A stretch of DNA of 64,000 bases from Stappia indica. GTDB taxonomy: Bacteria; Pseudomonadota; Alphaproteobacteria; Rhizobiales; Stappiaceae. This document shows, one piece after another, positions 31,166 through 52,740 of this stretch; within the stretch, counting starts at the first letter, position 1; every line of letters starts with the position of its first letter. The stretch spans positions 310,001 through 374,000 of the forward strand of contig NZ_JAIVMG010000001.1 of NCBI RefSeq assembly GCF_020177335.1, in the 5' to 3' direction. Position numbers and translations under genes: made by a program. The notes beneath the pieces were generated by a model. The model was given only the letters and a program-made list of their open reading frames with translations, had not been told where the DNA came from and did no database searches.

Positions 31166-31789
31166 TCAGTTGGCGCCGGAAGCCTCGTTCTGCTTGTCGA
31201 TCAGCTTCTGACGGGCTTCCTCGGCCCGCTTCTGCAGCTCCGACTGCAGCTGCTGCTGCTTCTGCTGAAGTGCGGCGGCGTCGATCGGCGCGCCGTCATA
31301 GACCTTGGTGAAGCCGGAGAGCGTGAGCTGGAACGGAACCTGCTTGGCCTGCTGGTTCAGCGTGGTCAGGATCAGCGCGTTGCCCTTCTTCATCGAGCCG
31401 ATGAACTCGTCGTTGATGACCAGCTCGGAATAGCAGGCGTTCGGATAGCAGATGCCGTATTTGGCTTCGTTCTGCTTGCCGGCGTCGACCTGAACGCGCA
31501 GGCCCGGCTGGATCAGCATTCCCGGCGGCACGGCGATCAGCAGCGTCTTGCGGGCCTCGCCGCCAATTTCGCGCACGGCGACGGAGGCGAGGAACTGACC
31601 GGTGTCGGTGCGCAGTTCCTGCGTGACGACGCAGACTTCCTTCTTGGACTGCGGGTCGGTGTTGCAGACCTTGACCCACGGCGAGTCCGCGGCCGGCTCA
31701 ACGGTCTGGGCAAGGGCGCCCGGCGCCGCGGCGAAAACGGCAGCGGCAATCGACAGCCCCGCCAGTTGCGTCTTGAAACTCATAACCAT
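31166..31789 (-). CDS. Invasion-associated locus B (IalB) family protein
   Basis: A ~207-residue exported protein of the IalB family, widespread in Rhizobiales and named from Bartonella. It has a signal peptide (LAGLSIAAAVFAAAPGALA), then the family core WVKVCNTDPQSKKEVCVV, LLIAVPPGMLIQPGLRVQVD, YGICYPNACYSEL and LTLSGFTKVYDG. Four cysteines lie in conserved paired positions. The Gln/Lys-rich C-terminal ~45 residues look helical and coiled. Start at ATG 31789 (ATG 31783 also possible). The cellular role is unresolved in the family. Confidence 0.9.
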   Translation of the reverse strand: MVMSFKTQLAGLSIAAAVFAAAPGALAQTVEPAADSPWVKVCNTDPQSKKEVCVVTQELRTDTGQFLASVAVREIGGEARKTLLIAVPPGMLIQPGLRVQVDAGKQNEAKYGICYPNACYSELVINDEFIGSMKKGNALILTTLNQQAKQVPFQLTLSGFTKVYDGAPIDAAALQQKQQQLQSELQKRAEEARQKLIDKQNEASGAN

Positions 31790-31792
31790 CAA

Positions 31793-32193
31793 ATGCGTCC
31801 CTACGTCCGTGGTGTCGCTGCGGCGCGGTTGGATGCGACGCGCCGTTGCCTCGCACTGAAACCGAAGTGGCTTCTAGATCCGTCGCGCCGTGAAAACTCG
31901 CGCTCGCCCTTCATGTGCGTGGCGATTGCGGCGAGACATTGACCTGTCTGCTCCGCGCGCATCTTTACAGCCTTGCTACTCAAATATCCAGAATGACCGG
32001 CGAAATCTGCCGCACCACGTCCCGCGCGACGATAAAAAACTCGGCACCCGTGCGAATTTGCATCACCTGCGCCCCGGATCGACTGTCCGTGGCGGGGCCT
32101 CAATCCCTTGCCTGGCACAAGGGCTCCACACCGGATTGGGATTTTGACATTGTGTTAACCATAACAAAGTGATTGAGCCGCTACGGTCTGACC
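31793..32193. promoter_or_regulatory. Divergent intergenic region ialB / YejA-like gene
   Basis: About 400 bases between divergent genes, with no convincing coding frame. Near the right end there is a TTGACA box at 32144-32149 and an inverted repeat TGTTA-ACCA-TAACA at 32153-32166, within 45 bases of the binding-protein start. It may be a promoter with an operator, though no good -10 falls at standard spacing. Confidence 0.35.
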
Positions 32194-34050
32194 ATGATGA
32201 CATGCTTTCGCTCTCTGATTCTGTCCTCGGCGCGGGTCCTGGTGGCCGGTGCGCTGGGTGTGTGCGTATCGAGCGCCGTACTTGCCGCCGACGAGATGCC
32301 GGCACCGGCCCATGGCATCGCCATGCATGGGACGCCCGCCCTGCCAGCAGATTTTTCGCATCTTCCTTATGCGAATCCGGATGCTCCCAAGGGGGGCGCG
32401 GTCACCTATGGGGTGCAGGGAAGCTTCGACAGTCTCAATCAGTTCATCGTGCAAGGGGGCACGACCACCGCGCGCGGCATCCGCGATTCCGACTACGGCG
32501 CGCTGGTGATCGAAAGCCTGCTTGACCGCAACATGGATGAACCCTTCTCGCTCTATGGTCTGCTCGCCGAGGCGGTGCGGATGCCGGAAGCGCGCGACTG
32601 GATCGAGTTCACGCTGAACGAAAAGGCGCGGTTTTCCGATGGTACGCCCGTCACCGTCGAGGATGTGATCTTCTCCTTCGAGATCCTGCGGGACAAGGGA
32701 CGTCCGCATTTCCGCGCCCGCTATAACCGCATCACGGCGATGGAAAAGACCGGCCCGCGCAGTGTGCGCTTCACCTTCGAGGACGGGTCCGACCGGGAAT
32801 TGCCGCTGCTGGTCGGCTTGTCGCCGATCTTCGCCCGCCATGTGATCGATCCGCAGACCTTCGACAAGAGCACGCTGGTGCCGCCGCTCGGCTCCGGACC
32901 GTACATCATCGACGAGGTCGAGCCAGGCAATCACATCACCTACCGGCGCAATCCGGACTACTGGGCGAAGGATCTGCCGATCCGGCGCGGGCTCTACAAT
33001 TACGACACGGTGCGCATCGAGTATTACCGCGACGAGAACACCCTGCTGGAATCCTTCAAGAAGGGGCTCGTCTCGCTCCTGCCCGTTGCCGACCCGGCGC
33101 GCTGGATGACCGGCTTCGACTTCCCGGCGGTCACCGAGGGCAAGGTCATCAAGGACAGTTTCTCGCTGGGCACCCCGGCGGGCATGTACGGCTTTGTCTT
33201 CAACACCCGCCGGCCGGTGTTCGCCGATCCCCGGGTGCGTCAGGCGCTGGCCATGCTGTTCGACTTTGAATGGGTCAATCGCAACCTCTATCACGGGCTT
33301 TATCAGCGTACCGGCGGCTATTTCGACAACTCCATCCTGTCCTCGCGCGGCCGTCCGGCCGATGCGCGCGAGCGGGCGCTGCTCGCGCCCTACATGGAGG
33401 AGATCGCGCCGGATGTGCTGGAGGGACGTTGGACGCCGACCGAGGCCGATGGCTCCGGGCGCGATCGCAAGGTTCTGCGCGCGGCGGTCGGCCTGCTGCG
33501 AGAGGCCGGCTACACCATCAATGGGCGTGAGATGAAGGGGCCGGACGGTGTCCCCCTCACCTTCGAGATGCTGGTTGCGGCGAAGGATCAGGAACGGCTT
33601 GCGCTCGCCTATCAGCGGGTGCTGGCGCTGGTCGGGATCCAGGCAACGGTGCGCAGCGCCGACAGCGCCCAGTATCAGCGTCGCCGTCAGAGCTTCGATT
33701 ACGACATGGTGCTGAACACCTGGCTTTCGTCGCTGTCGCCCGGCAACGAACAGCGCTACCGCTGGGGCAGTGCCGCCGCCGGGCAGCAGGGCTCCTTCAA
33801 CTATGCCGGGGTGCAGAGCGCCGCCGTGGATGCCATGATCACCGCGATGCTGGCCGCGCGCAGCGCCGGCGATTTCGTTTCGGCGGTGCGGGCGTTCGAC
33901 CGGGCGCTGATTTCGGGACACTATGTGGTTCCGCTGTTCCACCTGCCGGAAAAGTGGGTGGCCCGTTGGGACAAGATCAGCCGGCCCGGGAAACATGCCG
34001 TTTCCGGGCCTCGTTTCGAAACCTGGTGGGCCACTGAGGCCGGGCAATAG
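32194..34050 (+). CDS. YejA-like extracellular solute-binding protein (family 5), no permease nearby
   Basis: A 618-residue periplasmic binding protein of the peptide/nickel family 5, YejA-like branch. A signal peptide ends near VSSAVLAAD. The mature protein has the YejA-type opening HLPYANPDAPKGG then FDSLNQFIVQGG, followed by FTLNEKARFSDGTPVTVEDV. Such proteins deliver peptides or microcin C-like compounds to an ABC importer. No YejB/E/F permease or ATPase gene is adjacent; instead an acyl-AMP-ligase-like gene begins 17 bases downstream. I use ATG 32194; the ribosome site is weak. Confidence 0.88.
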   Translation: MMTCFRSLILSSARVLVAGALGVCVSSAVLAADEMPAPAHGIAMHGTPALPADFSHLPYANPDAPKGGAVTYGVQGSFDSLNQFIVQGGTTTARGIRDSDYGALVIESLLDRNMDEPFSLYGLLAEAVRMPEARDWIEFTLNEKARFSDGTPVTVEDVIFSFEILRDKGRPHFRARYNRITAMEKTGPRSVRFTFEDGSDRELPLLVGLSPIFARHVIDPQTFDKSTLVPPLGSGPYIIDEVEPGNHITYRRNPDYWAKDLPIRRGLYNYDTVRIEYYRDENTLLESFKKGLVSLLPVADPARWMTGFDFPAVTEGKVIKDSFSLGTPAGMYGFVFNTRRPVFADPRVRQALAMLFDFEWVNRNLYHGLYQRTGGYFDNSILSSRGRPADARERALLAPYMEEIAPDVLEGRWTPTEADGSGRDRKVLRAAVGLLREAGYTINGREMKGPDGVPLTFEMLVAAKDQERLALAYQRVLALVGIQATVRSADSAQYQRRRQSFDYDMVLNTWLSSLSPGNEQRYRWGSAAAGQQGSFNYAGVQSAAVDAMITAMLAARSAGDFVSAVRAFDRALISGHYVVPLFHLPEKWVARWDKISRPGKHAVSGPRFETWWATEAGQ

Positions 34051-34067
34051 GCGCTGGAAGACCTGCG

Positions 34068-35711
34068 ATGATCCTGACACCGCTGAAGACCATTGAAGCG
34101 CATCAGAAGAGCGGCATCTGGGGCCGCGTCACCCTCGACGCGCTGTTCCGCAAGACCGCGATGGCCCATCCGGACCGGCTGGCTCTGTGCGACCCGGCGG
34201 ATCGCGCAGGCTGGATTCCCGGCACCGCACGCCAGCTGACCTATGGTCAGGCGGATGAGGAAATCACCCAGCTTGCCAGCTTCTTCGGCGCGGTGGGGCT
34301 TCAGCCGGATCACGTGATTGGCCTGCAGACGCCGAACACGGTGGATGGCGTCATCGCCCTGCTCGCCGCCTTGCGCGCCGGACTGGTGGTGGCCCCGTTG
34401 CCGCTCTACTGGCGCCAGAAGAACGTGCTGGAAGCCCTGTCACGCGCCGGAGCCAAGGCGCTGATCGCCGGCGAGAGCTTCGGCGGGCGCAGCCTCGGGC
34501 TGGAAGCGCGGGACGCGGCGGCGGAAATGTTCTCCCTGCGGTTCGTTTTCGGCCTGGGCCGGGATGTTCCCGATGGGGTGATGGAGCTTGGCGAAGTGCT
34601 CGGCGCCGGGGCGGAAAGCATGGGCGATCTGTCGGGCAACCTGCCGCGCCGGGGCACCGATGCCGCCGATCATGTGGCGACGCTGACCTGGACCCAGAGC
34701 ACCAGCGGCGAGCCGCTGCCGATCGCCCGCAGCCACAATCAGTGGATTGCCGCCGGCTTGATGCCCTATCTGGAGCTTTCCCTGCCGAGTGCGCCGAAAT
34801 TCGTGCTGCCCTATGCGGTGACCGGAATGGCCGGGATCGGCGCCGGGCTGATGCCCTGGCTGCTTTCCGGCGGCACCTTGCATCTGCATCAGCCCCGGTC
34901 CCTGCGCCGGCTGGCCGCGCATGTGGATTCCGTCGGTGCCGATTGCGTCCTTTGCCCCGGCAGCCTCGTCGGCAGTCTGGAGAAGCGTCTGGACAACATG
35001 GAATGCAGGGTTGTCGCGGTGTGGAGTGCGCATTCGGCGGCTCCCGTTCCGCGCGCCACCAATCGGGATCTCGTCGATCTGCATGTGCTCGACGAATTCG
35101 CCATGATCGCCCGCCGCCGGGAGGGCAGCGCCCTGCCCCGCCCGTTCCGCAGCGGCCGGATCGGTTCGCCATCAAGTGCCGCCAATGGCCCCGCGCTCCT
35201 GGAAATCGAGGTCGATACCGAGATGGAAGGCTCCGGTGGACCGAACACCTTGAAAGTGCGCGGTGCCATGGTCGCGGACTCGGCCTGGCCATCCTCGCGG
35301 GTGCGCATCCCCACCGACAAGGCGGGGTTCGTCGATACGCTTTTGCCCGTCAGAATGTCCGAACATGGGGTTTCGGGCGTTGGTATTCCCGGCACCTCCG
35401 CGCCGGGCGTGTTCTCCCTGCCCGCACTGGATGCACTCTATGGGGCCTTCCCCGGCATGAGGGAAGCAGCGGCCTTTCTCGTTGATGACGGCATTCTCGG
35501 CGCCCGGGTCTATGCCGCGCTGGTGCCGCAACAAGGCTTTCATCTCGATATCGAGGGGTTCTTCGCCTATCTCGATGCGGAGCGGGCCGGTCTGGCGGAA
35601 ATTCCGCATCGGATCCTGTCGCTGACGGCGCTGCCGCGCAAGGAGAACGGTGCGGTCGACCGGGCGGCCCTGTCGGAGCGGGTGAGCTTGCGCCATGCCG
35701 CGGTTGCGTGA
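34068..35711 (+). CDS. Acyl-AMP-ligase-like protein with degenerate active site
   Basis: A 547-residue protein with the overall layout of the ANL superfamily (acyl-CoA synthetases, fatty-acyl-AMP ligases): a large N-domain opening LTYGQADEEITQLASFFGAVGL and a small C-domain ending LTALPRKENGAVDRAAL. Key motifs are altered. The P-loop-like block reads TQSTSGEPLPIARSH (209-223) in place of the TSGTTGxPKG form. No YRTGD motif is visible. The A10 catalytic lysine (NGK) is Ala529. Classical adenylation therefore looks unlikely, and a binding or scaffolding role is inferred. It follows the YejA-like gene by 17 bases and precedes a PleD-like gene by 65. Confidence 0.75.
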   Translation: MILTPLKTIEAHQKSGIWGRVTLDALFRKTAMAHPDRLALCDPADRAGWIPGTARQLTYGQADEEITQLASFFGAVGLQPDHVIGLQTPNTVDGVIALLAALRAGLVVAPLPLYWRQKNVLEALSRAGAKALIAGESFGGRSLGLEARDAAAEMFSLRFVFGLGRDVPDGVMELGEVLGAGAESMGDLSGNLPRRGTDAADHVATLTWTQSTSGEPLPIARSHNQWIAAGLMPYLELSLPSAPKFVLPYAVTGMAGIGAGLMPWLLSGGTLHLHQPRSLRRLAAHVDSVGADCVLCPGSLVGSLEKRLDNMECRVVAVWSAHSAAPVPRATNRDLVDLHVLDEFAMIARRREGSALPRPFRSGRIGSPSSAANGPALLEIEVDTEMEGSGGPNTLKVRGAMVADSAWPSSRVRIPTDKAGFVDTLLPVRMSEHGVSGVGIPGTSAPGVFSLPALDALYGAFPGMREAAAFLVDDGILGARVYAALVPQQGFHLDIEGFFAYLDAERAGLAEIPHRILSLTALPRKENGAVDRAALSERVSLRHAAVA

Positions 35712-35776
35712 AGCGAGGGTGACTGCGGTGGCCGAGCGGACTGAAGCCTCTCCCCAGCGCTGCGGGAGGCGATGCA

Positions 35777-37003
35777 GTGCCCGCTAAACTGGGGCCGTTG
35801 CCGCGCAGCGGCGCCGGCGTTGCGCCATCGGTTGCCATCGAAATCGACGTCGATGCGGAAATGCCCCGGGCCGGCCCGTGGTTGACCGACGGGCTCGTCG
35901 GCTGGTTCGAGGTCACCACGAAAGACGCCCTGCAGCTGGCAAAGACCCACAACCGGTTTCCCGATGCTATCGCCCACTTTCGCGGACAGCACCGCCCGTC
36001 CACCGAGGATTCCGCACTCACGGAGCTGGTGCACCTCGCCCGGGCTCGCGGGTTGGAGCTTCCGGTCTTCGTCATCGGCGGGCGTGCCGGACAGTACGAC
36101 GGGGCCGTGCGCCCTGCAGCCTATGCGGATCCAAGCCTTTCGGCCCCGCTATTTGGGGAGCGGCTGGGGGACGTGATCCGCGAGATCGGCCGTCTCAGCG
36201 AAATCCGGCTACGGCGGCGGGTGTTCGGCGCCCTGCCGGGAGAGTGGACGGCGGAGAGCCGCGAGCATTCGACCATCGCCTTGCTGGTGCTCGGCCTCAG
36301 TCACCGGTTCGGCGCGGTGTTCGGCGTGGGCGCGGGACGGTTCGAGATCGTCGGAGCCTTCACGTTCGACATGGCGATGCAGTTTCTCGAAGCCCGGCGG
36401 TTCGATGCGGTGCTGATCGATTGTCCGCCGGAGATGGCTATCGACTATGTGACCCGGCTGCGCTTCGATCCCAGGCATGTCAATCTTCCCGTGATCGCTT
36501 GCGCAAGGGATGCGGCGGATGCGGCCCGGTTGCACGCGGCGGGGGCGAGCGATGTGCTGGCCCATGGGCTGGACCCGGCAGAGCTTTCGGAGCGGGTGCG
36601 GATCGCCATCCGTGCCGGAGCGCGGCGCCATCTGGCCGGCGCGTTGCTGCGCCGCTTCCGTCACCGGCATCTGGGCGAACGCGGCCGGCTGCCGCGTGCG
36701 GCCTATGACCGCTACCTTGCCGAACTCAGTCGCATCCTGGCCTTGCAGGGGCGAGAGCCCCTGGCGGTACCACTTACCTCGTTTCATCCTGATCCGCTGT
36801 GGCGGAGCGCGGCGAATGACGAGGCGTTTCGTCCCGCAGGCGGCAATCCGCTGCGCTCTGCGGCGCTCGCCGCCTCGCGCGAGGAGGATTTTGTTGCTAC
36901 GGTCGAGGGGCTGGGCGACATGGTCGTCCTGCGCGACGCCGCCGCCGTCGGCCGGCTGGCCCGTCGCCTGTCATCGATCGTGAGCGCGACCAGCTTCCTC
37001 TGA
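35777..37003 (+). CDS. PleD/PopA-like protein with degenerate receivers and GGDEF domain
   Basis: A 408-residue protein that I read as REC-REC-GGDEF with most signature residues lost. Residues ~20-135 resemble a receiver without its phospho-Asp. Residues ~155-285 resemble a second receiver (FDAVLIDCPPEMAIDYV, with Asp215 kept, but no acidic pair and His for the usual Lys in VLAHGLDP). Residues ~290-408 match a GGDEF outline: AAYDRYLAELSRILALQGR, then REEDF at 368-372 where GGDEF would be, with no RxxD inhibitory site. A diguanylate cyclase activity is improbable. Start is GTG 35777 with GGGAGG seven bases upstream. The domain reading is by pattern only. Confidence 0.6.
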   Translation: MPAKLGPLPRSGAGVAPSVAIEIDVDAEMPRAGPWLTDGLVGWFEVTTKDALQLAKTHNRFPDAIAHFRGQHRPSTEDSALTELVHLARARGLELPVFVIGGRAGQYDGAVRPAAYADPSLSAPLFGERLGDVIREIGRLSEIRLRRRVFGALPGEWTAESREHSTIALLVLGLSHRFGAVFGVGAGRFEIVGAFTFDMAMQFLEARRFDAVLIDCPPEMAIDYVTRLRFDPRHVNLPVIACARDAADAARLHAAGASDVLAHGLDPAELSERVRIAIRAGARRHLAGALLRRFRHRHLGERGRLPRAAYDRYLAELSRILALQGREPLAVPLTSFHPDPLWRSAANDEAFRPAGGNPLRSAALAASREEDFVATVEGLGDMVVLRDAAAVGRLARRLSSIVSATSFL

Positions 37004-37081
37004 GGCGGCGACCCGCGCGCGGATCCGGAACAGACGCCCGCCCGCAACCGGCGGGTGCCGTCAACGCTGAAGGACTGTTTG

Positions 37082-37744
37082 ATGGAAGAAGGCGATCCCC
37101 TGCGTATCGATATCGTGTCAGACGTGATGTGCCCGTGGTGCTATATCGGCAAGCGCCGGCTGGAAAAGGCCCTGGCCGAAGTGCCGGATATCGCCGTCTC
37201 CTTGCGCTGGATGCCGTTTCAGCTCGATGAGACGCTCCCGCCGGAAGGCAAGGACCGGGCGCAGTATCTCAACGAGAAATTCGGCGGAGCGGAGCGGGCC
37301 GAGGCCGCCTATGCGCCGGTGCGGGCGGCGGGCGCCGCGGAAGGCATTCCCTTCGCCTTCGACCGCATTCGCAAATCGCCCAACACCCTCGATTGCCACC
37401 GGCTGATCCTGTGGTCCCGTGCGGAGAACGCCCAGAGCGAAATGGCGGAGCGGCTGTTCCAGCTCTATTTCGTGGAAGGCGCCGATCTGACCGACCCGGA
37501 AACCCTGATCCAGGCCGCCGACGATGTGGGCATGATGTCCGATCTGGTGGCGGAGCTGCTGCCGACCGATTCCGACAAGGACAAGGTGCAGCGGGATCTC
37601 GACAACGCCCGCGCCATCGGGGTTACCGGCGTTCCCTGTTTCATCATCGATGAGCGCTTCATGGTGATGGGGGCGGAAGCGCCGGAAACCCTGGCGGCGG
37701 CAATCCGTCATGCGCATGAGACCCGGCCCGGCAACGGCGCCTGA
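37082..37744 (+). CDS. DsbA-family (FrnE-like) oxidoreductase
   Basis: A 220-residue thioredoxin-fold protein of the FrnE/2-hydroxychromene-2-carboxylate isomerase-like branch. The CPWC active site is in VMCPWCYIGKRRLEKAL, the cis-Pro region is GVTGVPCFIIDERF, and there is no signal peptide, so it is cytoplasmic. FrnE-like proteins act as thiol oxidoreductases or isomerases in stress response. I use ATG 37082 with AAGGAC upstream; a GTG nine codons earlier is also open. It follows the PleD-like gene by 78 bases. Confidence 0.9.
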   Translation: MEEGDPLRIDIVSDVMCPWCYIGKRRLEKALAEVPDIAVSLRWMPFQLDETLPPEGKDRAQYLNEKFGGAERAEAAYAPVRAAGAAEGIPFAFDRIRKSPNTLDCHRLILWSRAENAQSEMAERLFQLYFVEGADLTDPETLIQAADDVGMMSDLVAELLPTDSDKDKVQRDLDNARAIGVTGVPCFIIDERFMVMGAEAPETLAAAIRHAHETRPGNGA

Positions 37745-38700
37745 CCGCGCTGTCTCCGCTGCCTCAAAAACCAGAGTAAAATTTTCTCACTTTGAGTTCC
37801 CCAGCCATGTTTGAAGTAATTAAGAATTCTGCTCTGACGTGGATAGGAATTATAGGTGGGGCGATAACGCTTATCTCTAATATTCAAGGTATTGTTGAGC
37901 TGGGGAAGTGGGCTGATTGGCTGATTCTTAAGTGGCGCGCAACGGTTTTTCCTATTTTCTCAGGATTTATTGATCTCATCGGATTCAAGGTTTCGTCCAT
38001 CGCCATATCAATGATCGCGATGGCGGTATTTGTTAGCGCTATTGCTATCGGTTCGAATTTCGAAAAAAGAATAAAGGTAGATTCCGACGAAGAGTGGAGG
38101 TGGGGCCGAGGGAGGATATTTAATGCCCGAGTCCTATTTGGTATATTTATGTACTCATTTCATGCTTTAATTGTTTTTTCTATAAATAAAATTTCATTTA
38201 TTTATAATTTGTATTTTAATTTCCCATATATTTTTATTTCTCTTCTTTACGTTTTATATGTCGGAGCAATCGTGATTGGGTTGAAAGGATGGCCTCTATG
38301 GACCTCTATATCTATTGCGGCAAGCATGATTTTTTTTAGCTTTATTTTTGGTTATGCGGCAACTTCTTCCCAGGAGGCGGGTGTCTCTGATACTGCGTCA
38401 TTTTTCCTTTCGGGAATTAGCGCTATACTTTGCGGATTGATCGTAGTGGGGGTAGCGCCCCCTCTCACTTTTACACGCAGGATATACTTCCTGAATTTTG
38501 GTGTCGCCTGCGTGATTGCACTCAGTCAGATTGGTCGTCTTGGAGCTTCCGTTACGCCCTGAGCTCCCAAGATCGGTTGAGTTTTCTTCAAAACATACCC
38601 GGAGCGCCACAGGCACGCCGGGATCTTTCGTTTTTTGGCCATTGATTGAGAATGCCTCGCCTTGAGGCCTGTTCCAGCGATCTGGGGATGACGCCGAGAA
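37745..38700. other. AT-rich island between the dsbA-like gene and eno
   Basis: Base composition drops sharply here, with long A/T runs around 38130-38360, against strongly GC-rich flanks. It holds one membrane-protein gene and no transposase, integrase or obvious direct repeats. The boundary on the eno side lies near the hairpin at 38728-38766. Confidence 0.7.
37807..38562 (+). CDS. Orphan polytopic membrane protein, AT-rich
   Basis: A 251-residue protein with about seven hydrophobic segments (for example WIGIIGGAITLISNIQGIV, SSIAISMIAMAVFVSAIAIG, FPYIFISLLYVLYVGAIVI, ISIAASMIFFSFIFGYAA). The first membrane segment lies right at the N-terminus, with a charged loop NFEKRIKVDSDEEWRWGRG before segment three. 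I do not recognise it. Codons are A/T-rich, unlike all neighbours, which points to recent transfer. Start is uncertain: ATG 37807 or TTG 37792, neither with a good ribosome site. It resembles small membrane effectors only in the broadest sense. Confidence 0.7.
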   Translation: MFEVIKNSALTWIGIIGGAITLISNIQGIVELGKWADWLILKWRATVFPIFSGFIDLIGFKVSSIAISMIAMAVFVSAIAIGSNFEKRIKVDSDEEWRWGRGRIFNARVLFGIFMYSFHALIVFSINKISFIYNLYFNFPYIFISLLYVLYVGAIVIGLKGWPLWTSISIAASMIFFSFIFGYAATSSQEAGVSDTASFFLSGISAILCGLIVVGVAPPLTFTRRIYFLNFGVACVIALSQIGRLGASVTP

Positions 38701-38727
38701 GCGCCGTTGCCCCTTGTTTGCAGTCTG

Positions 38728-46871: not shown

Positions 46872-48950
46872 CTATTCGGCAGCCTCCGCCCTGGGGCTGA
46901 TCACCGGCTCCATGCCTTCCAGCTCCGAAGGCTGGAGGTGGCACAGGATCCGGTGGTCCTGGCCGAAGGTGCGGTTCGGCGGCAGCTCCACATCGCAGGT
47001 GCCGGGGATCATGTAGGGGCAGCGGGTGGAGAACGGGCATCCCTTCGGCGGATTGGAGGGTGACGGGATTTCGCCCTTCAGCACAATATGCCGCTTCTTG
47101 ACCCGCGTGTCGGCAATCGGCACGGCGGCCAGAAGTGCCTCGGTATAGGGATGATAGGGCGGCGAGAACACCTCCTCGGTGGTCCCCTGCTCCATGATCC
47201 GGCCAAGATACATGACGACGATGCGGTCGGCGAGATAGCGCACCACCGAAAGGTCATGGCTGATGAACAGCATAGTGGTGCGGTTTTCGCGCTGGATGTC
47301 CATCAGCAGCTCGGTGACGGCGGCCTGAACGGAGACATCGAGGGCGGAGACCGGCTCGTCGGCGATCACCACGCTGGGGTTGCCGGCAAAGGCGCGGGCG
47401 ATGCCGACGCGCTGCTTCTGGCCGCCGGAGAGCTGGCGCGGCTTGCGCTTGGCGAAATCGCGCGGCAGCTTCACCGTGTCGAGCAGCCGATAGACGATCT
47501 CGTTGACCTCCTCCTCGCTCCGGGCAACGCCAAACTTGCGGATCACCCGGCCGATCTGCGCGCCGATGGTGTGCGAGGGGTTGAGGGTGTCGAACGGGTT
47601 TTGAAACACCATCTGCAAGTTGGCGATGGTGTCCTTCGTCCGCTTCTGCACGGGCAGATCGCCAAGCTCGGTGTCGCCGAGCAGCACCTGACCGTCGGTC
47701 GCGTCTTCCAGCCCCATCAGCACCTTGGCGAAGGTCGACTTGCCGCAGCCGCTTTCGCCGACGATGGCCACCGTCTCCGCTTCGCGGGCGGAAAAGGTCA
47801 GCTTCTCGTTCGCCTTCACCGTGCGAGTCGCCCCGCCCATGGCCAGAAGGCCGCCGGTCTCGATGGCGTAATGCTTGGTCATGTCCTTGACCGACAGGAC
47901 CACCGGGCCGGCCTTGATCGGCGGTTTGGCCTCGCCCTTCGGCAGGTCCCGGTCCCAATCGATCTCGGCAAAGCGCTCGCAGCGCACCCGGTGATCGTCG
48001 TCGCCGGGCACGGGATGCATCGGCAATGCGCGGGCGTCGCACAGCCCGCCCTTGAAGAAGCTGCAGCGCGGACCGAAGTTGCACCCCGGCGGGCGCTCGT
48101 GCGGCAATGGCAACTGACCGGGGATCGCCATCAGCGGATGGGCGTTCTTGTCCGCACCGGGCAGCGGGATCGAGCCGAACAGGCCGCGCGTATACGGGTG
48201 GCGCATCTCGTCGAAGACATCCTCGATATCGCCAACCTCCACCGCCTCGCCGGAATACATCACGGTGAGCCGGTGACAGGTCTCCAGGATCAGCCCGAGA
48301 TTGTGCGAGATGTAGATCATCGAGGTGCCGAATTCGGCGGAAATCTCGTTGATCAGCTCGACGATGCCCGCTTCCACGGTGACATCGAGGGCAGTGGTCG
48401 GCTCATCGAGCAGCAACAGGCGCGGGTTCGACAACAGCGCCATGGCGATCACCACCCGCTGCTGCTGGCCGCCGGAGATCTGGTGCGGATAGGAGCGCAG
48501 GATGCGGCGCGGATCCGGCAGGCGGACCTTGGCGAGCATCTCCTCCGCCCGCGCCAGCGCTTCACTCTGGGACAGGCCGTCATGATAGATCGGCACTTCG
48601 GCGAGCTGGTCGCCGATGGTCATGGCCGGGTTCAGGGAGGCCATCGGCTCCTGATAGACCATGGCGATCTTCGACCCGCGGATTTGCCGCAGCTCCTCCT
48701 CGGACATGGTGCGCATGTCGCGCCCCTCGAACAGGATCTCGCCGCCGACGATGGCACCGTTCCGGCCCATGTACTGCATGATCGCCAGCGCCACGGTCGA
48801 CTTGCCGCAGCCGCTCTCACCGACGATGCCATGGGCCTCGCCGGGCATGAGCTTCAGGTTGAAGTCGACAACGGCGGGAATTTCGCCGGCCCGGGTGTAA
48901 TAGGAGATGCACAGGTTGCGGCACTCCAGCACCGGTGTCTGTTCGGTCAT
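46872..48950 (-). CDS. Oligopeptide-type ABC transporter ATP-binding protein, fused DppD-DppF
   Basis: A 692-residue ATPase with two complete nucleotide-binding domains, equal to fused DppD and DppF. Domain 1 has Walker [10 protein letters not shown], signature ISGGQQQRV and Walker [13 protein letters not shown]. Domain 2 (from about residue 350) repeats Walker [10 protein letters not shown], signature LSGGQKQRV and [12 protein letters not shown]. Each ends with the Cys-rich oligopeptide tail ([11 protein letters not shown] and [10 protein letters not shown]). ATG 48950 has AGGAG seven bases upstream. It is the last gene of the operon. Confidence 0.95.
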
Positions 48951-48961
48951 CATGTGGCTCC

Positions 48962-49981
48962 TCAGTCCCGCAGGCTCATTTCCCGAAGGCCGTCGGCCAT
49001 CAGGTTGAAGCCGAGGATCAGGCTGGAGACGGCCAGCGCCGGCACCAGCAGCATGTAGGAGAATTTCCAGAGCATCGCCGTCTTGGCGCTCTCGCGGATC
49101 ATCAGTCCCCAGTCCGGGTCGGGCGGCTGCAGTCCGAGGCCGAGGAAGGTCAGGGTGGTGATCGCCACGGTGGTGTAGCCAAGGCGCAGGCAGGCATCGA
49201 CGATGATCGGTCCGCGCACATTCGGCAGCAGCTCGACGATCATGATGTAGAGCGGATGCTCGCCGCGCGTTTGCGCCGCGAACACATAGTCGCGGGTCTT
49301 GATGTCAAGGGTCAGCCCGCGAACGATGCGCATGATCGCCGGCGCCGAGGCGAAGGTCACCGCCACCACGATGTTGAAGCCCGAAGGGCCGAGATAGTTG
49401 AGGATGACGATGAACAGCACCATCACCGGGAAGGACAACAGCACATTGGCGACGAAGGAGATGATCTCGTCCCACCAGCCGCTGAGATAGCCGGAAATCA
49501 GGCCGAACAGGGCGCCGACCACATAGGCGACGAAGGTGGCCGAAACGCCCCAGACGATCACCCGCTGGCAGCCCCAGATCATCCGCGACAGCATGTCCCG
49601 GCCCTTGAAATCGGTGCCGAGCCAGAAGAACACGTCGCGCTTTTCGCTGAGCGGGGTGACGAAGGGCGCGATCGGCTTGTTCGGGTCGAGCAGCGGCAGA
49701 TAGGGCGCGGCGACGGCGGCAAGCAGCCAGAAGAAGACGAGGGTCAGGCCGATCACCGCGACCCGGCTTTCGCGAAAGGCGCGCACGCCCAGCACATAGA
49801 GCAGCAGCGTTGCCGGAATGGCCGGCAACAGGATGTAGTCGGCGGCCGGCCCGAGCGCGCTGCCGCCCATGACATAGCTCATCAGCGGCAGCCACATCAG
49901 CAGCCCCAGGGCGATCAGCGCCCGTGGGTGCGACAAGCGCTCCAGCGCCGAAGGTCCCGCCTCGATTTCGGTAACAGCCAT
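48962..49981 (-). CDS. ABC transporter permease, DppC-like
   Basis: A 339-residue inner-membrane permease of the binding-protein-dependent family. An N-terminal anchor is followed by about five more helices. The ATPase-contact loop with the EAA-like motif AAQTRGEHPLYIMIVELLPNVRG is clear, as is GTDFKGRDMLSRMIWG. Start is ATG 49981 with GGGAGAG upstream; a longer open frame is unlikely. It lies between dppB-like and ATPase genes on the same strand. Confidence 0.94.
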   Translation of the reverse strand: MAVTEIEAGPSALERLSHPRALIALGLLMWLPLMSYVMGGSALGPAADYILLPAIPATLLLYVLGVRAFRESRVAVIGLTLVFFWLLAAVAAPYLPLLDPNKPIAPFVTPLSEKRDVFFWLGTDFKGRDMLSRMIWGCQRVIVWGVSATFVAYVVGALFGLISGYLSGWWDEIISFVANVLLSFPVMVLFIVILNYLGPSGFNIVVAVTFASAPAIMRIVRGLTLDIKTRDYVFAAQTRGEHPLYIMIVELLPNVRGPIIVDACLRLGYTTVAITTLTFLGLGLQPPDPDWGLMIRESAKTAMLWKFSYMLLVPALAVSSLILGFNLMADGLREMSLRD

Positions 49982-50000
49982 TGAGGGTCTCTCCCGTCCT

Positions 50001-50951
50001 TCAGGCGAAGCGGATGCGCGGATTGAGGAAGGTGTAGCCGATGTCGGAAATGATCTGCGACAGCACGGCCACGGCCACGGCGACCAGGGTGCAGGCCTGC
50101 ACCACCTCCACATCCGGGAACAGGGCGGCCTCCAGCAACAACTTGCCGAAGCCGTCGTATTCAAAGAACACCTCGACCACGACCACGCCGGAGAGCAGCC
50201 AGTTGAGCTGCAGCACGATCAGCGTGAAGGGCGCGATCAGCGCGTTGCGCAGGGCGTGTTTCATCACCACGCGCCGATAGGGCAGTCCCTTGAGCACGGC
50301 GGTGCGGATGTATTGCGAGGTCATCACCTCGGCCATGGAGGCGCGGGTCATGCGGGCGACATAGCCAAAGTCGTAGATCACCAGCGTCAGCACCGGCAGC
50401 AGCAGTTCGCGGAAACTGAAGCCGTTGATCATCGCCGCCTTCGCCGGCAGCCAGCCAAGGCCGAGCGACAGCACCACCGTCAGCAGGATCGCCGTGGCGA
50501 TTTCCGGGATACTGGTGGTGAAGACCGACAGGAAGGAGATCGTCCGGTCCTGCACGGACCCCTCCTTCATTCCGGCGAGAATGCCCAGCACCAGCGACAG
50601 CGGGATCATCAGCGCGAAGACGAAGAAGGCGAGGATGCCGGTGTTCGCCAGCCGGTCGAGCAGCAAGGGGCCGACGGGGCGGTTCTTCTCATAGGAAAAG
50701 CCCATGTCGCCTTGCAGGATGTCCCCCACCCAGTTCAGGTAGCGGGTGTGGAAGGGCACATCCAGCCCCTTCTCCGCCAGCCAGGCGTTGTAGCTCTCCT
50801 CCGTCAGCGCGGAGACGGCAAAGCCGCCGAGTTCCTGAACCGCGAGACGCTTCTTGAACTCCGGCGTGTCGAAGATCGCGAACAAGAGCAGCGACGCGAC
50901 GGCCATGATCAACAGCATCTGGAGAAGCCGTCGCAGGATCAGTTTCAGCAT
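50001..50951 (-). CDS. ABC transporter permease, DppB-like
   Basis: A 316-residue permease partner of the DppC-like protein. About six helices are seen, with the family segment LILRRLLQMLLIMAVASLLLFAIFD at the N-terminus and the EAA-like loop RTAVLKGLPYRRVVMKHALRNALI. It lies downstream of the binding-protein gene after a 109-base gap and 19 bases upstream of dppC-like, completing the channel. Confidence 0.94.
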   Translation of the reverse strand: MLKLILRRLLQMLLIMAVASLLLFAIFDTPEFKKRLAVQELGGFAVSALTEESYNAWLAEKGLDVPFHTRYLNWVGDILQGDMGFSYEKNRPVGPLLLDRLANTGILAFFVFALMIPLSLVLGILAGMKEGSVQDRTISFLSVFTTSIPEIATAILLTVVLSLGLGWLPAKAAMINGFSFRELLLPVLTLVIYDFGYVARMTRASMAEVMTSQYIRTAVLKGLPYRRVVMKHALRNALIAPFTLIVLQLNWLLSGVVVVEVFFEYDGFGKLLLEAALFPDVEVVQACTLVAVAVAVLSQIISDIGYTFLNPRIRFA

Positions 50952-51060
50952 ATTGGGTCACCATGTCTGGATCCCGGCGCCGGGCCGCCCTGGAGAGGCG
51001 GTGCGGCGAAGGGCTGCCGGGCGGGAGATCGTCCCCCGCCCGGCCGGATCGTCATGGGCG

Positions 51061-52740
51061 TCAGGCCGCCTTCCAGACCTTGTTGAACTGGTGATACTGG
51101 GTCGGGTGCGCCGGGTAGCCATGCACCGCCTTGCTGGCGATGGTGTAGACCGGGCGGCAGATCGGCTGCACCATCACCGCATCGTCCTGAAGCACCTTCT
51201 CGATGTTCTCCATCAACGCGCGGCGCTTTTCCACGTCGAGCGTTGCTTCGGCCTCATCCAGGGCCTTGTCCCATTCCGGGTTGGAGTACTTCGTCTCGTT
51301 CCAGGGAACACCGGTCCGGTAGCCGAGCGACAGCACCATGGTGCCGAGCGGGCGGTGGGTCCAGGCGGTGGCGCCGAACGGCGTCTTGTCCCAGATCTCC
51401 CAGTATTTCGAGGGCGGCATCACATTGACGTTGAGGGTGATGCCTGCGTCCTTCAACTGGTCGCGCATGGCCTCGGCCACGGTCTGGTGCCACGGGCCAT
51501 CGGTGTTGCCGACGTCAATGGTCAGCTCCAGCCCGTCCGGATAGCCCGCTTCGGCGAGTAGCGCCTTGGCACCGTCGACGTCCCGCACCAGCGGCGGCAG
51601 CTTGAAGTATTCCGGATGGATCGGCGCCACATGCTGGTTCTCACCGATATCGCCGCCTTCCGGATAGACCAGCTCCTTGATCAGCGCATTGTCGACCGCC
51701 TTGACGATCGCCTGGCGCACCCGCTTGTCGTCGAACGGCTTTTCCGTCACCTGGAAGCGGCAGCACAGGGTCTGTGCGGTGCGCGCCGCGATGATGTTGC
51801 CATCCAGCGCCTTGGCCAGTTCCATCTGCTCGACGCCGAATTCGTAGATCGCATCCACGTCGCCGCCGGCGAAGGTGGTGAGCTGGTTGTCCTCATCGAA
51901 ATTGTAGTAGTGGATCTCGTCGAGATAGACCTTGCCGCCCCAGTACTCGATGCCCTCCACTCGCTTCAGGATGCAGCGGTCGCCGACGGTGTTTTCAACC
52001 AGCGTGAACGGGCCGGTGCCGATGGCATTGTCGGAGAACGGCGGCTTGAAGCTGCGGTGCACGAGGGCCGTCGGATAGTTGTACATGTCCTCGGGGAAGG
52101 ACAGCACCGCCTTCGACAGATGGAAGCGGATGGTGTGGTCGTCGATTACCTCGATGGCACCGTCGCGCATCACCTTCTTGCCGTCCTTTTCCTCCATCAG
52201 CGCGGCAATGGACGACAGGCCGACATTCGACGAGCCGAGATCCGGGTTCATCCAGCGCTCGAAGTTGAACTTCACGTCCTCGGTGGTGAAGTCGTCGCCA
52301 TTGTTCCACTTCACGCCCTTGCGCAGGTAGAACGTCCAGGTCTTGAGATCGTCCGAGGCCTCCCAGCGCTCGGCCAGCATCGGCCGGGTGACGTTGTCCG
52401 GGCCGGTCATCGTCAGGTGTTCCAGGATGTGCCGGGTCTGGTTGGACATCTCCACCCAGGAATAGGTCGCCGGATCCTCCATCTTCTGCACCTGCATGGC
52501 GACCTTCAGCACGCCGCCGGACTGGGCGTTCGGGTCATCGGGCGGGAACGGCATGTTGGCCTGGTCATCGGCGAAGGCGGGGCTCGGCAGGCCGGCCATC
52601 GAATAGGCGGCGCCGGCGCCAACGCCAAGAAGCGCGGCGAAGCGAACGAACTCGCGGCGGCTCAGCGCACCATCCTTCATCTGCTTCCGCAATTGCGGAA
52701 CCTTGGAATGCAGTCCCGTCGAAGAATTGTTGGTCGACAT
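51061..52740 (-). CDS. ABC transporter substrate-binding protein, family 5, Tat-exported
   Basis: A 559-residue periplasmic binding protein of the peptide/nickel family. The N-terminus has a twin-arginine signal, SRREFVR at residues 27-33, followed by a hydrophobic stretch ending near PSPAFA. The mature core has LAERWEASDDLKTWTFYLRKGVKWNNGDDFT and later AGYPDGLELTIDVGN. Peptides or related amines are likely ligands. It is first in the operon, with a strong AGGAGGT 11 bases before the ATG. Tat export is unusual but not rare for this family in Rhizobiales. Confidence 0.94.
   Translation of the reverse strand: MSTNNSSTGLHSKVPQLRKQMKDGALSRREFVRFAALLGVGAGAAYSMAGLPSPAFADDQANMPFPPDDPNAQSGGVLKVAMQVQKMEDPATYSWVEMSNQTRHILEHLTMTGPDNVTRPMLAERWEASDDLKTWTFYLRKGVKWNNGDDFTTEDVKFNFERWMNPDLGSSNVGLSSIAALMEEKDGKKVMRDGAIEVIDDHTIRFHLSKAVLSFPEDMYNYPTALVHRSFKPPFSDNAIGTGPFTLVENTVGDRCILKRVEGIEYWGGKVYLDEIHYYNFDEDNQLTTFAGGDVDAIYEFGVEQMELAKALDGNIIAARTAQTLCCRFQVTEKPFDDKRVRQAIVKAVDNALIKELVYPEGGDIGENQHVAPIHPEYFKLPPLVRDVDGAKALLAEAGYPDGLELTIDVGNTDGPWHQTVAEAMRDQLKDAGITLNVNVMPPSKYWEIWDKTPFGATAWTHRPLGTMVLSLGYRTGVPWNETKYSNPEWDKALDEAEATLDVEKRRALMENIEKVLQDDAVMVQPICRPVYTIASKAVHGYPAHPTQYHQFNKVWKAA

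Follow-up and report, generated by a model that had tools for sequence, protein, structure and literature searches.

We examined a 64,000-nucleotide stretch of the Stappia indica genome (hereafter the window; G000:C1:310001-374000 of a 4.66 Mb genome), in which four genes on the plus strand encode a YejA-like binding protein (SBP), a ligase-like protein (LIG-A), a PleD-like protein (PLED), and a DsbA-like protein (DSBA) (Table 1). These four genes are a conserved cassette of the Hyphomicrobiales, probably the order's form of the popA locus. The first-pass annotation had described a same-strand set with gaps of 17, 65, and 78 bases; with starts as called the gaps are as given, all four open reading frames (ORFs) were confirmed on that strand, and family scans agree in outline. 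Alternative in-frame starts are available for SBP (TTG at 32173) and DSBA (GTG at 37055). A scan of 31700-38100 returned no promoter-like sites (0.8 expected) and four terminator-like sites (5.0 expected), none of them within the four-gene gaps. The closest named relative among the loci, Stappia taiwanensis CCM 7757 (L084), has LIG-A and PLED proteins at 98 and 87 percent identity, respectively.

Table 1. Features of the four-gene cassette and its divergent neighbor (window coordinates).
Feature	Position	Strand	Remarks
IalB-family protein gene	31166..31792	-	Pfam IalB 110 bits; divergent neighbor bordering the cassette in most relatives
SBP, YejA-like extracellular solute-binding protein (SBP_bac_5)	32194..34050	+	Pfam 217 bits
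LIG-A, ANL-fold acyl-CoA-ligase-like pseudoenzyme	34068..35711	+	AMP-binding 87 bits
LIG-A former P-loop, residues 208-226	34689..34745	+	Lys and next Gly gone; R-x-H-N-x-W after it kept
LIG-A catalytic C-terminal Lys position, Ala in window	35652..35654	+	Lys in 6/44 rows
PLED, probable PopA orthologue, REC-REC-degenerate GGDEF, probable c-di-GMP receptor	35777..37003	+	
PLED putative c-di-GMP inhibitory-site motif R368-E-E370-D371 (PleD R359xxD362)	36878..36889	+	
PLED putative third inhibitory-site arginine R397 (PleD R390)	36965..36967	+	
DSBA, DsbA/FrnE-like thiol oxidoreductase, CPWC	37082..37744	+	Pfam DSBA 153 bits

We compared the window with 20 regions from relatives, picked for having PLED. 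The usual order in these 21 regions is a divergent ialB (cluster C2; seen in 18, window counted), SBP, LIG-A, in some families a second ligase gene (LIG-B), PLED, and DSBA; outside the family of the window, mfd, sdhE, and recG come next in most families. In the window itself, DSBA adjoins PLED and mfd is not adjacent. A second set comprised 54 loci found via LIG-A alone among genome contigs; SBP lies upstream in 53 and PLED downstream in 46. Of the 46 named loci with PLED, 36 have DSBA downstream of it, 34 of these at no more than 400 bases. The distance from the LIG-A stop to the first usable PLED start is 34 bases or fewer in 27 of 46 loci, with overlap in five; these distances are minima because each PLED was counted from its most upstream in-frame ATG. 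Its recurrence across families of the order puts the arrangement beyond chance, in agreement with the neighborhood conservation that the first-pass annotation had put forward as a check. Extra genes occur within the cassette at L031/L092 and L036/L097: LIG-A and PLED are set apart by approximately 1.2 kb, and two ORFs, of 409 and 284 amino acids, separate PLED from DSBA.

Within the order, 48 of 199 genomes carry a PLED match of at least 235 bits, a cut chosen after the scores were seen and applied to at most 7-9 candidates per genome. This count is a lower bound, because the linked PLED of G049 (222.6 bits) falls under the cut and weak PLED-like matches (51-87 bits) lie downstream of LIG-A in L049, L056, and L060. 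LIG-A is found on the same strand within 6 kb of PLED in 43 of the 48 genomes, so the failure of the two genes to co-occur elsewhere, which the first-pass annotation said would speak against its proposal, was not seen. In four of the five unpaired genomes (G032, G047, G057, and G192) the contig terminates within PLED or a short way upstream of it. The fifth, G026, has 5.4 kb of upstream sequence without LIG-A, and its PLED match scores 238 bits vs. an ordinary PleD background of up to 231. Eight of the 54 LIG-A loci are without PLED, four of them at a contig end (L094, L101, L113, and L117). We also examined 20 further regions, 19 with LIG-A but no listed PLED and one own-genome paralogue; SBP adjoins LIG-A in 18 of the 19, and the weak PLED-like matches account for three. 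LIG-A can occur without PLED; PLED without LIG-A was not clearly seen.

Such linkage might reflect regional synteny only, with a block of popA, dsbA, SBP, LIG-A, ialB, hspQ, mcl, and an lpxL-like gene inherited unrearranged and LIG-A and PopA doing unrelated jobs. Conservation extends beyond the cassette, to hspQ, mcl, and the lpxL-like gene upstream and mfd, sdhE, and recG downstream, so that linkage alone is no proof of joint function, and LIG-A persists without PLED and away from any contig end in four loci (L096, L099, L110, and L118), which also speaks against a partnership. However, the window's family breaks the block at mfd, yet SBP, LIG-A, PLED, and DSBA stay tightly packed on one strand. 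The short LIG-A/PLED distances point the same way, as does the finding that, the near-background G026 apart, LIG-A is clearly missing from none of the 48 PLED-positive genomes that have enough DNA upstream. We regard inheritance of an unrearranged block as a serious alternative, though one we lean away from.

The LIG-A protein of the window matches AMP-binding over profile positions 1-269 of 384, and AMP-binding_C falls below the cut-off. Its best NCBIfam models are those of AliA-type cyclohexanecarboxylate-CoA and medium-chain acyl-CoA ligases (83 and 78 bits), which also rank in the top three for the intact contig C5 paralogue and have the H-N-x-W stretch in common with LIG-A. Unlike these acyl-CoA ligases, LIG-A scores far under the 792-bit cut-off and is without the P-loop Lys, the ribose-binding Asp, and, mostly, the C-terminal Lys. 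ANL enzymes are described by motifs named A3, A5, A7, A8, and A10. Taking an intact paralogue of the source genome (L064) as reference, we aligned 44 LIG-A rows, gappy around the P-loop, and found the P-loop Lys in one row, the Gly after it in none, the ribose-binding Asp (motif A7) in none, and the C-terminal catalytic Lys in six; the window protein has none of the three catalytic residues. Directly after the P-loop, on the other hand, R-x-H-N-x-W is kept (Arg in 43/44; His, Asn, and Trp each in 44/44). An AlphaFold2 model (predicted local distance difference test score, pLDDT, 91.6; predicted template modeling score, pTM, 0.92) was placed by Foldseek with the aryl-acid adenylating enzyme fold (template modeling score, TM, 0.76 to CahJ). 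An active ligase in the window is ruled out by the lost motifs. Judged by its motifs and predicted structure, LIG-A is an ancient pseudoenzyme derived from acyl-CoA ligases that has kept the fold and lost the ATP-handling motifs.

In several families LIG-B, a ligase gene with intact motifs, sits between LIG-A and PLED (L038, L039, L040, and L043). The four LIG-B proteins retain the P-loop Lys, ribose Asp, and C-terminal Lys; they match benzoate-CoA-ligase and fatty-acid-ligase models, all below cut-off. The source genome encodes a homologue of LIG-B (663 bits) not in the cassette but on contig C15. This homologue and the position of LIG-B behind LIG-A would fit a ligase heterodimer in which LIG-A is the inactive subunit of a nearby or distant active LIG-B; many families keep LIG-A and PLED in a cassette without LIG-B, however, and we think a heterodimer unlikely.

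In a Pfam scan of the PLED protein of the window, Response_reg fell below the cut-off and GGDEF gave no match, and the NCBIfam PleD model reached 17 bits (cut-off 474). A profile comparison matched PLED to PleD in two stretches (E 2e-55) covering REC-REC-GGDEF; PLED thus consists of a REC pair and, behind it, a domain derived from GGDEF. In a Foldseek search with its model (pLDDT 81.6), PleD fills the top ten rows (best E 1e-12). PLED resembles the PleD diguanylate cyclase in domain order and nearest solved fold; it differs in being without the catalytic GGEEF and metal site. The window protein carries EGLGD at the signature position, and metal Asp 327 of PleD is lost. GG[DE]E[FY] occurs in 0/23 rows of the order and 0/6 of the Caulobacter family vs. 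18/18 PleD rows. An active diguanylate cyclase in the window is ruled out by the lost GGDEF motif. As their motifs indicate, LIG-A and PLED are both catalytically degenerate throughout the sampled order, not freshly broken.

The residues expected to bind cyclic di-GMP (c-di-GMP) are kept. R368, E370, and R397 are each present in 46/46 PLED rows and D371 in 44/46; the arginines and the aspartate correspond to R359, R390, and D362 of PleD, which form the c-di-GMP inhibitory site. The Glu of R-x-E-D occurs in 45/45 PopA/PLED rows vs. 0/18 PleD rows. RxxD marks the inhibitory site, and degenerate GGDEF domains such as that of PopA keep it, according to a 2023 review (PMC10333796). The first-pass annotation had called LIG-A and PLED two dead enzymes; this holds for the catalysis of both but overlooks the conserved c-di-GMP site of PLED, and the window protein probably binds c-di-GMP there, as the retained residues suggest.

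Purifying selection argues against gene decay. Ratios of nonsynonymous to synonymous substitution rates (dN/dS) between the window and S. taiwanensis are 0.05 for SBP, 0.08 for LIG-A, 0.20 for PLED, and 0.06 for DSBA, and over eight Stappiaceae pairs they span 0.03-0.13 for LIG-A and 0.03-0.40 for PLED. Recent pseudogenes are ruled out by purifying selection in Stappiaceae together with order-wide conservation. That LIG-A and PLED are functionless pseudogenes in slow decay would agree with the lost ligase motifs, the eroded GGDEF body in Stappiaceae, and dN/dS values of 0.2-0.5 in three Ancalomicrobiaceae-type pairs (both genes relaxed; LIG-A, 0.22-0.53; PLED, 0.24-0.39). Against this stand the Stappiaceae values, frames open across the order, invariant residues at specific places, and confident structure models, and we consider slow decay highly improbable. 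Nor is PLED a decaying PleD, because the genome keeps an intact PleD elsewhere (contig C16).

PLED is probably an orthologue of PopA and not a dead scaffold, a reading that draws on homology and predicted fold, motifs, phylogeny, and synteny. In a tree of 63 proteins including 18 PleD rows, the source genome's own PleD (L194) among them, all 18 fall on one side of a 100/100 branch that separates them from PLED. Outside the order we took 19 regions from the best PLED matches, one of which proved to be a true PleD. PLED adjoins DSBA in 16 of the 19, mfd is in the same stretch in 10, and LIG-A is in none. What extends beyond the order is a popA-dsbA core, in many cases next to mfd; in other alphaproteobacteria DSBA is the gene between popA and mfd. 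In two of these regions parts of the cassette lie close by: a YejA-like SBP 5.3 kb from PLED (L157) and a LIG-B-like gene 0.9 kb from PLED (L158), so parts of the cassette may predate the order. At two loci outside the order (L159 and L163) the gene in the popA position combines the RGED motif with a GGDEF that is still intact; by their motifs these proteins may still be active cyclases marking an ancestral state.

The comparison with Caulobacter was made through genome G512: over 240 residues, its PleD fragment shows 100 percent identity with the C. crescentus PleD chain in the PDB. Its best match to the PLED profile is a non-PleD gene (256 bits vs. 148 for its PleD), followed by DSBA and then mfd; in four other Caulobacter-family genomes the best match scores 243-266 bits and PleD 187-191. 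If the G512 protein starts at a TTG preceded by GGAGG, its inhibitory-site Arg is residue 357, presumably the R357 of the PopA inhibitory-site mutant. In C. crescentus popA is CC1842 (PMC3764195) and mfd is CC1844 (PMC1839093); these published locus numbers leave one number between the two genes. PLED is like Caulobacter PopA in its REC-REC-GGDEF homology, the lost GGDEF signature, RxxD with the PopA-typical Glu, a gene position before dsbA and mfd (the latter in relatives, not in the window), and the presence of RcdA in the genome. It is unlike it in belonging to Hyphomicrobiales, in being joined to SBP and LIG-A, and in the shortened GGDEF body of Stappiaceae.

Several observations weigh against the orthology or against c-di-GMP binding. 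The Caulobacter group stands beside Stappiaceae weakly (92/77), the rows of the order do not form one clade, and branching on the PopA side is poorly resolved. Foldseek TM values to PleD are just 0.45-0.53 with a large root-mean-square deviation (rmsd), and VIA-align matched the two REC domains only (residues 16-296; Z 15.5; rmsd 3.9 over 256 residues), a result that backs the REC-REC part and says nothing about the GGDEF part. D371 is replaced by N or C in two relatives (L114 and L116), and three Stappia pairs have dN/dS values for PLED as high as 0.35-0.40. In Stappiaceae, PLED is eroded (408 amino acids in the window, with the GGDEF body partly lost), so that affinity could be lost, and its end branches reach 1.6 changes per column on a stem of 1.96. 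Because the GGDEF body is largely gone and evolution is fast, c-di-GMP binding is less sure in the window than in Rhodobium or Prosthecomicrobium. Long branches, low between-group identity, and the poor resolution of the PopA side would also suit a PleD copy that decayed separately into a c-di-GMP receptor independent of PopA. The place ahead of dsbA and mfd, which the C. crescentus-like genome shows too, the shared Glu of RxED, and the placement of the sampled genomes' PleD across the 100/100 branch make such a separate origin improbable to us.

A PopA-type adaptor would need its partner, and RcdA (DUF1465) is encoded in the source genome (G000:C4:184781-185248; 201 bits); the family identity is supported by a relative's copy that matches PDB RcdA 3ctw. 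Across the order RcdA was found in 179 of 199 genomes, including all 48 PLED-positive ones but also 131 of 151 without PLED. As RcdA is common in the order, its presence is weak evidence and no proof. One family (f50; five genomes sampled, including L063/G198 and L057/G087) has a diverged LIG-A in all five genomes, no RcdA match in four, and no PLED match above the PleD background in any.

The first-pass annotation had described SBP as an orphan. There are indeed no permease or ATPase genes beside it in the window; however, it is a third YejA paralogue, with two others in the genome (41 and 39 percent identity) on contig C12, where a yej-like operon encodes two binding proteins, two permeases, and one fused ATPase. 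SBP might therefore feed that transporter or act alone. It is like YejA of the yejABEF peptide transporter in its SBP_bac_5 family and in these long paralogues, and unlike it in having no transporter genes alongside. The window also holds a full oligopeptide-type ATP-binding cassette (ABC) operon 9 kb downstream (46872-52740), with a fused ATPase, two permeases, and an SBP_bac_5 protein with a Tat-like (twin-arginine translocation) start. We rejected this operon (46.9-52.7 kb) as the missing transporter of SBP, since its binding protein has no match to SBP at 1e-10; the two closer paralogues on contig C12 also disfavor it. DSBA resembles FrnE/DsbA-family thiol oxidoreductases in its thioredoxin domain and CxxC motif, in keeping with its earlier reading as a CPWC thiol oxidoreductase.

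Beyond the cassette, an AT-rich stretch of about 980 bases (37745-38727; 46 percent GC around it) is inserted between the DSBA gene and enolase. S. taiwanensis has 29 bases in its place, and the flanks align. The insert holds one hydrophobic ORF of 256 amino acids (37792-38562) that has no Pfam or NCBIfam match and, by tblastn against the fetched loci, matched its own genome only.

Caulobacter PopA is described as binding c-di-GMP, binding RcdA via its N-terminal part, and bringing CtrA to ClpXP (PMC8973945, PMC3764195). Polar localization is a further trait of PopA. On the PopA model, PLED would no longer make c-di-GMP but would bind it at the inhibitory site, shifting dimerization and partners as described for PopA, and with RcdA would hand CtrA and other substrates to the protease ClpXP; we infer this RcdA/ClpXP/CtrA role for the source organism. 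LIG-A would most likely be a partner of the PopA adaptor, or a regulator of it, that responds to metabolites and does no catalysis, by analogy with metabolic proteins in Caulobacter cell-cycle control: PMC7083601 names citrate synthase CitA in CtrA control, and also KidO, which resembles an oxidoreductase and is a substrate of the same adaptors. SBP and DSBA would probably be neighbors with periplasmic and redox jobs of their own. As a whole, a Hyphomicrobiales popA locus with PLED as a PopA-type c-di-GMP adaptor and LIG-A as its non-catalytic partner is the explanation we favor, with moderate confidence. In the earlier suggestion of a signaling or scaffolding module, the direction of second-messenger control is right, the amendment being that PLED is probably a PopA-type receptor and not a dead scaffold. 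A more specific proposal, which we offer as speculation and think rather doubtful, is that LIG-A is an ATP-blind relic still able to bind a ligand of acyl or aryl type and, by contacting PopA or RcdA, ties carboxylic-acid or lipid metabolism to the c-di-GMP-dependent proteolysis by ClpXP and to entry into the cell cycle throughout Hyphomicrobiales.

PopA-like receptors appear in the alphaproteobacterial tree of the 2023 review (PMC10333796), and PMC7200025 lists a homologue of popA (25 percent) in Hyphomonas neptunium. An Agrobacterium paper has a single mention of PopA, for Caulobacter (PMC3577659), a paper on Caulobacterales likewise names PopA once, and PopA is absent from the text of a 2010 comparative study of alphaproteobacterial cell-cycle genes (PMC2877005). 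Within the open-access text available, a Hyphomicrobiales PopA is unreported, and the tree of PMC10333796 may hold members under other names. We found no literature linking YejA, a ligase, and GGDEF in Hyphomicrobiales, and no described function for the order-wide pseudo-ligase LIG-A.

PopA has been described as restricted to relatives of Caulobacter. If the orthology is true, it would be older and wider in the class, and PopA would be open to study in budding, marine, and host-associated Hyphomicrobiales, with LIG-A, a pseudo-ligase conserved across the order, as a testable candidate for a PopA partner.

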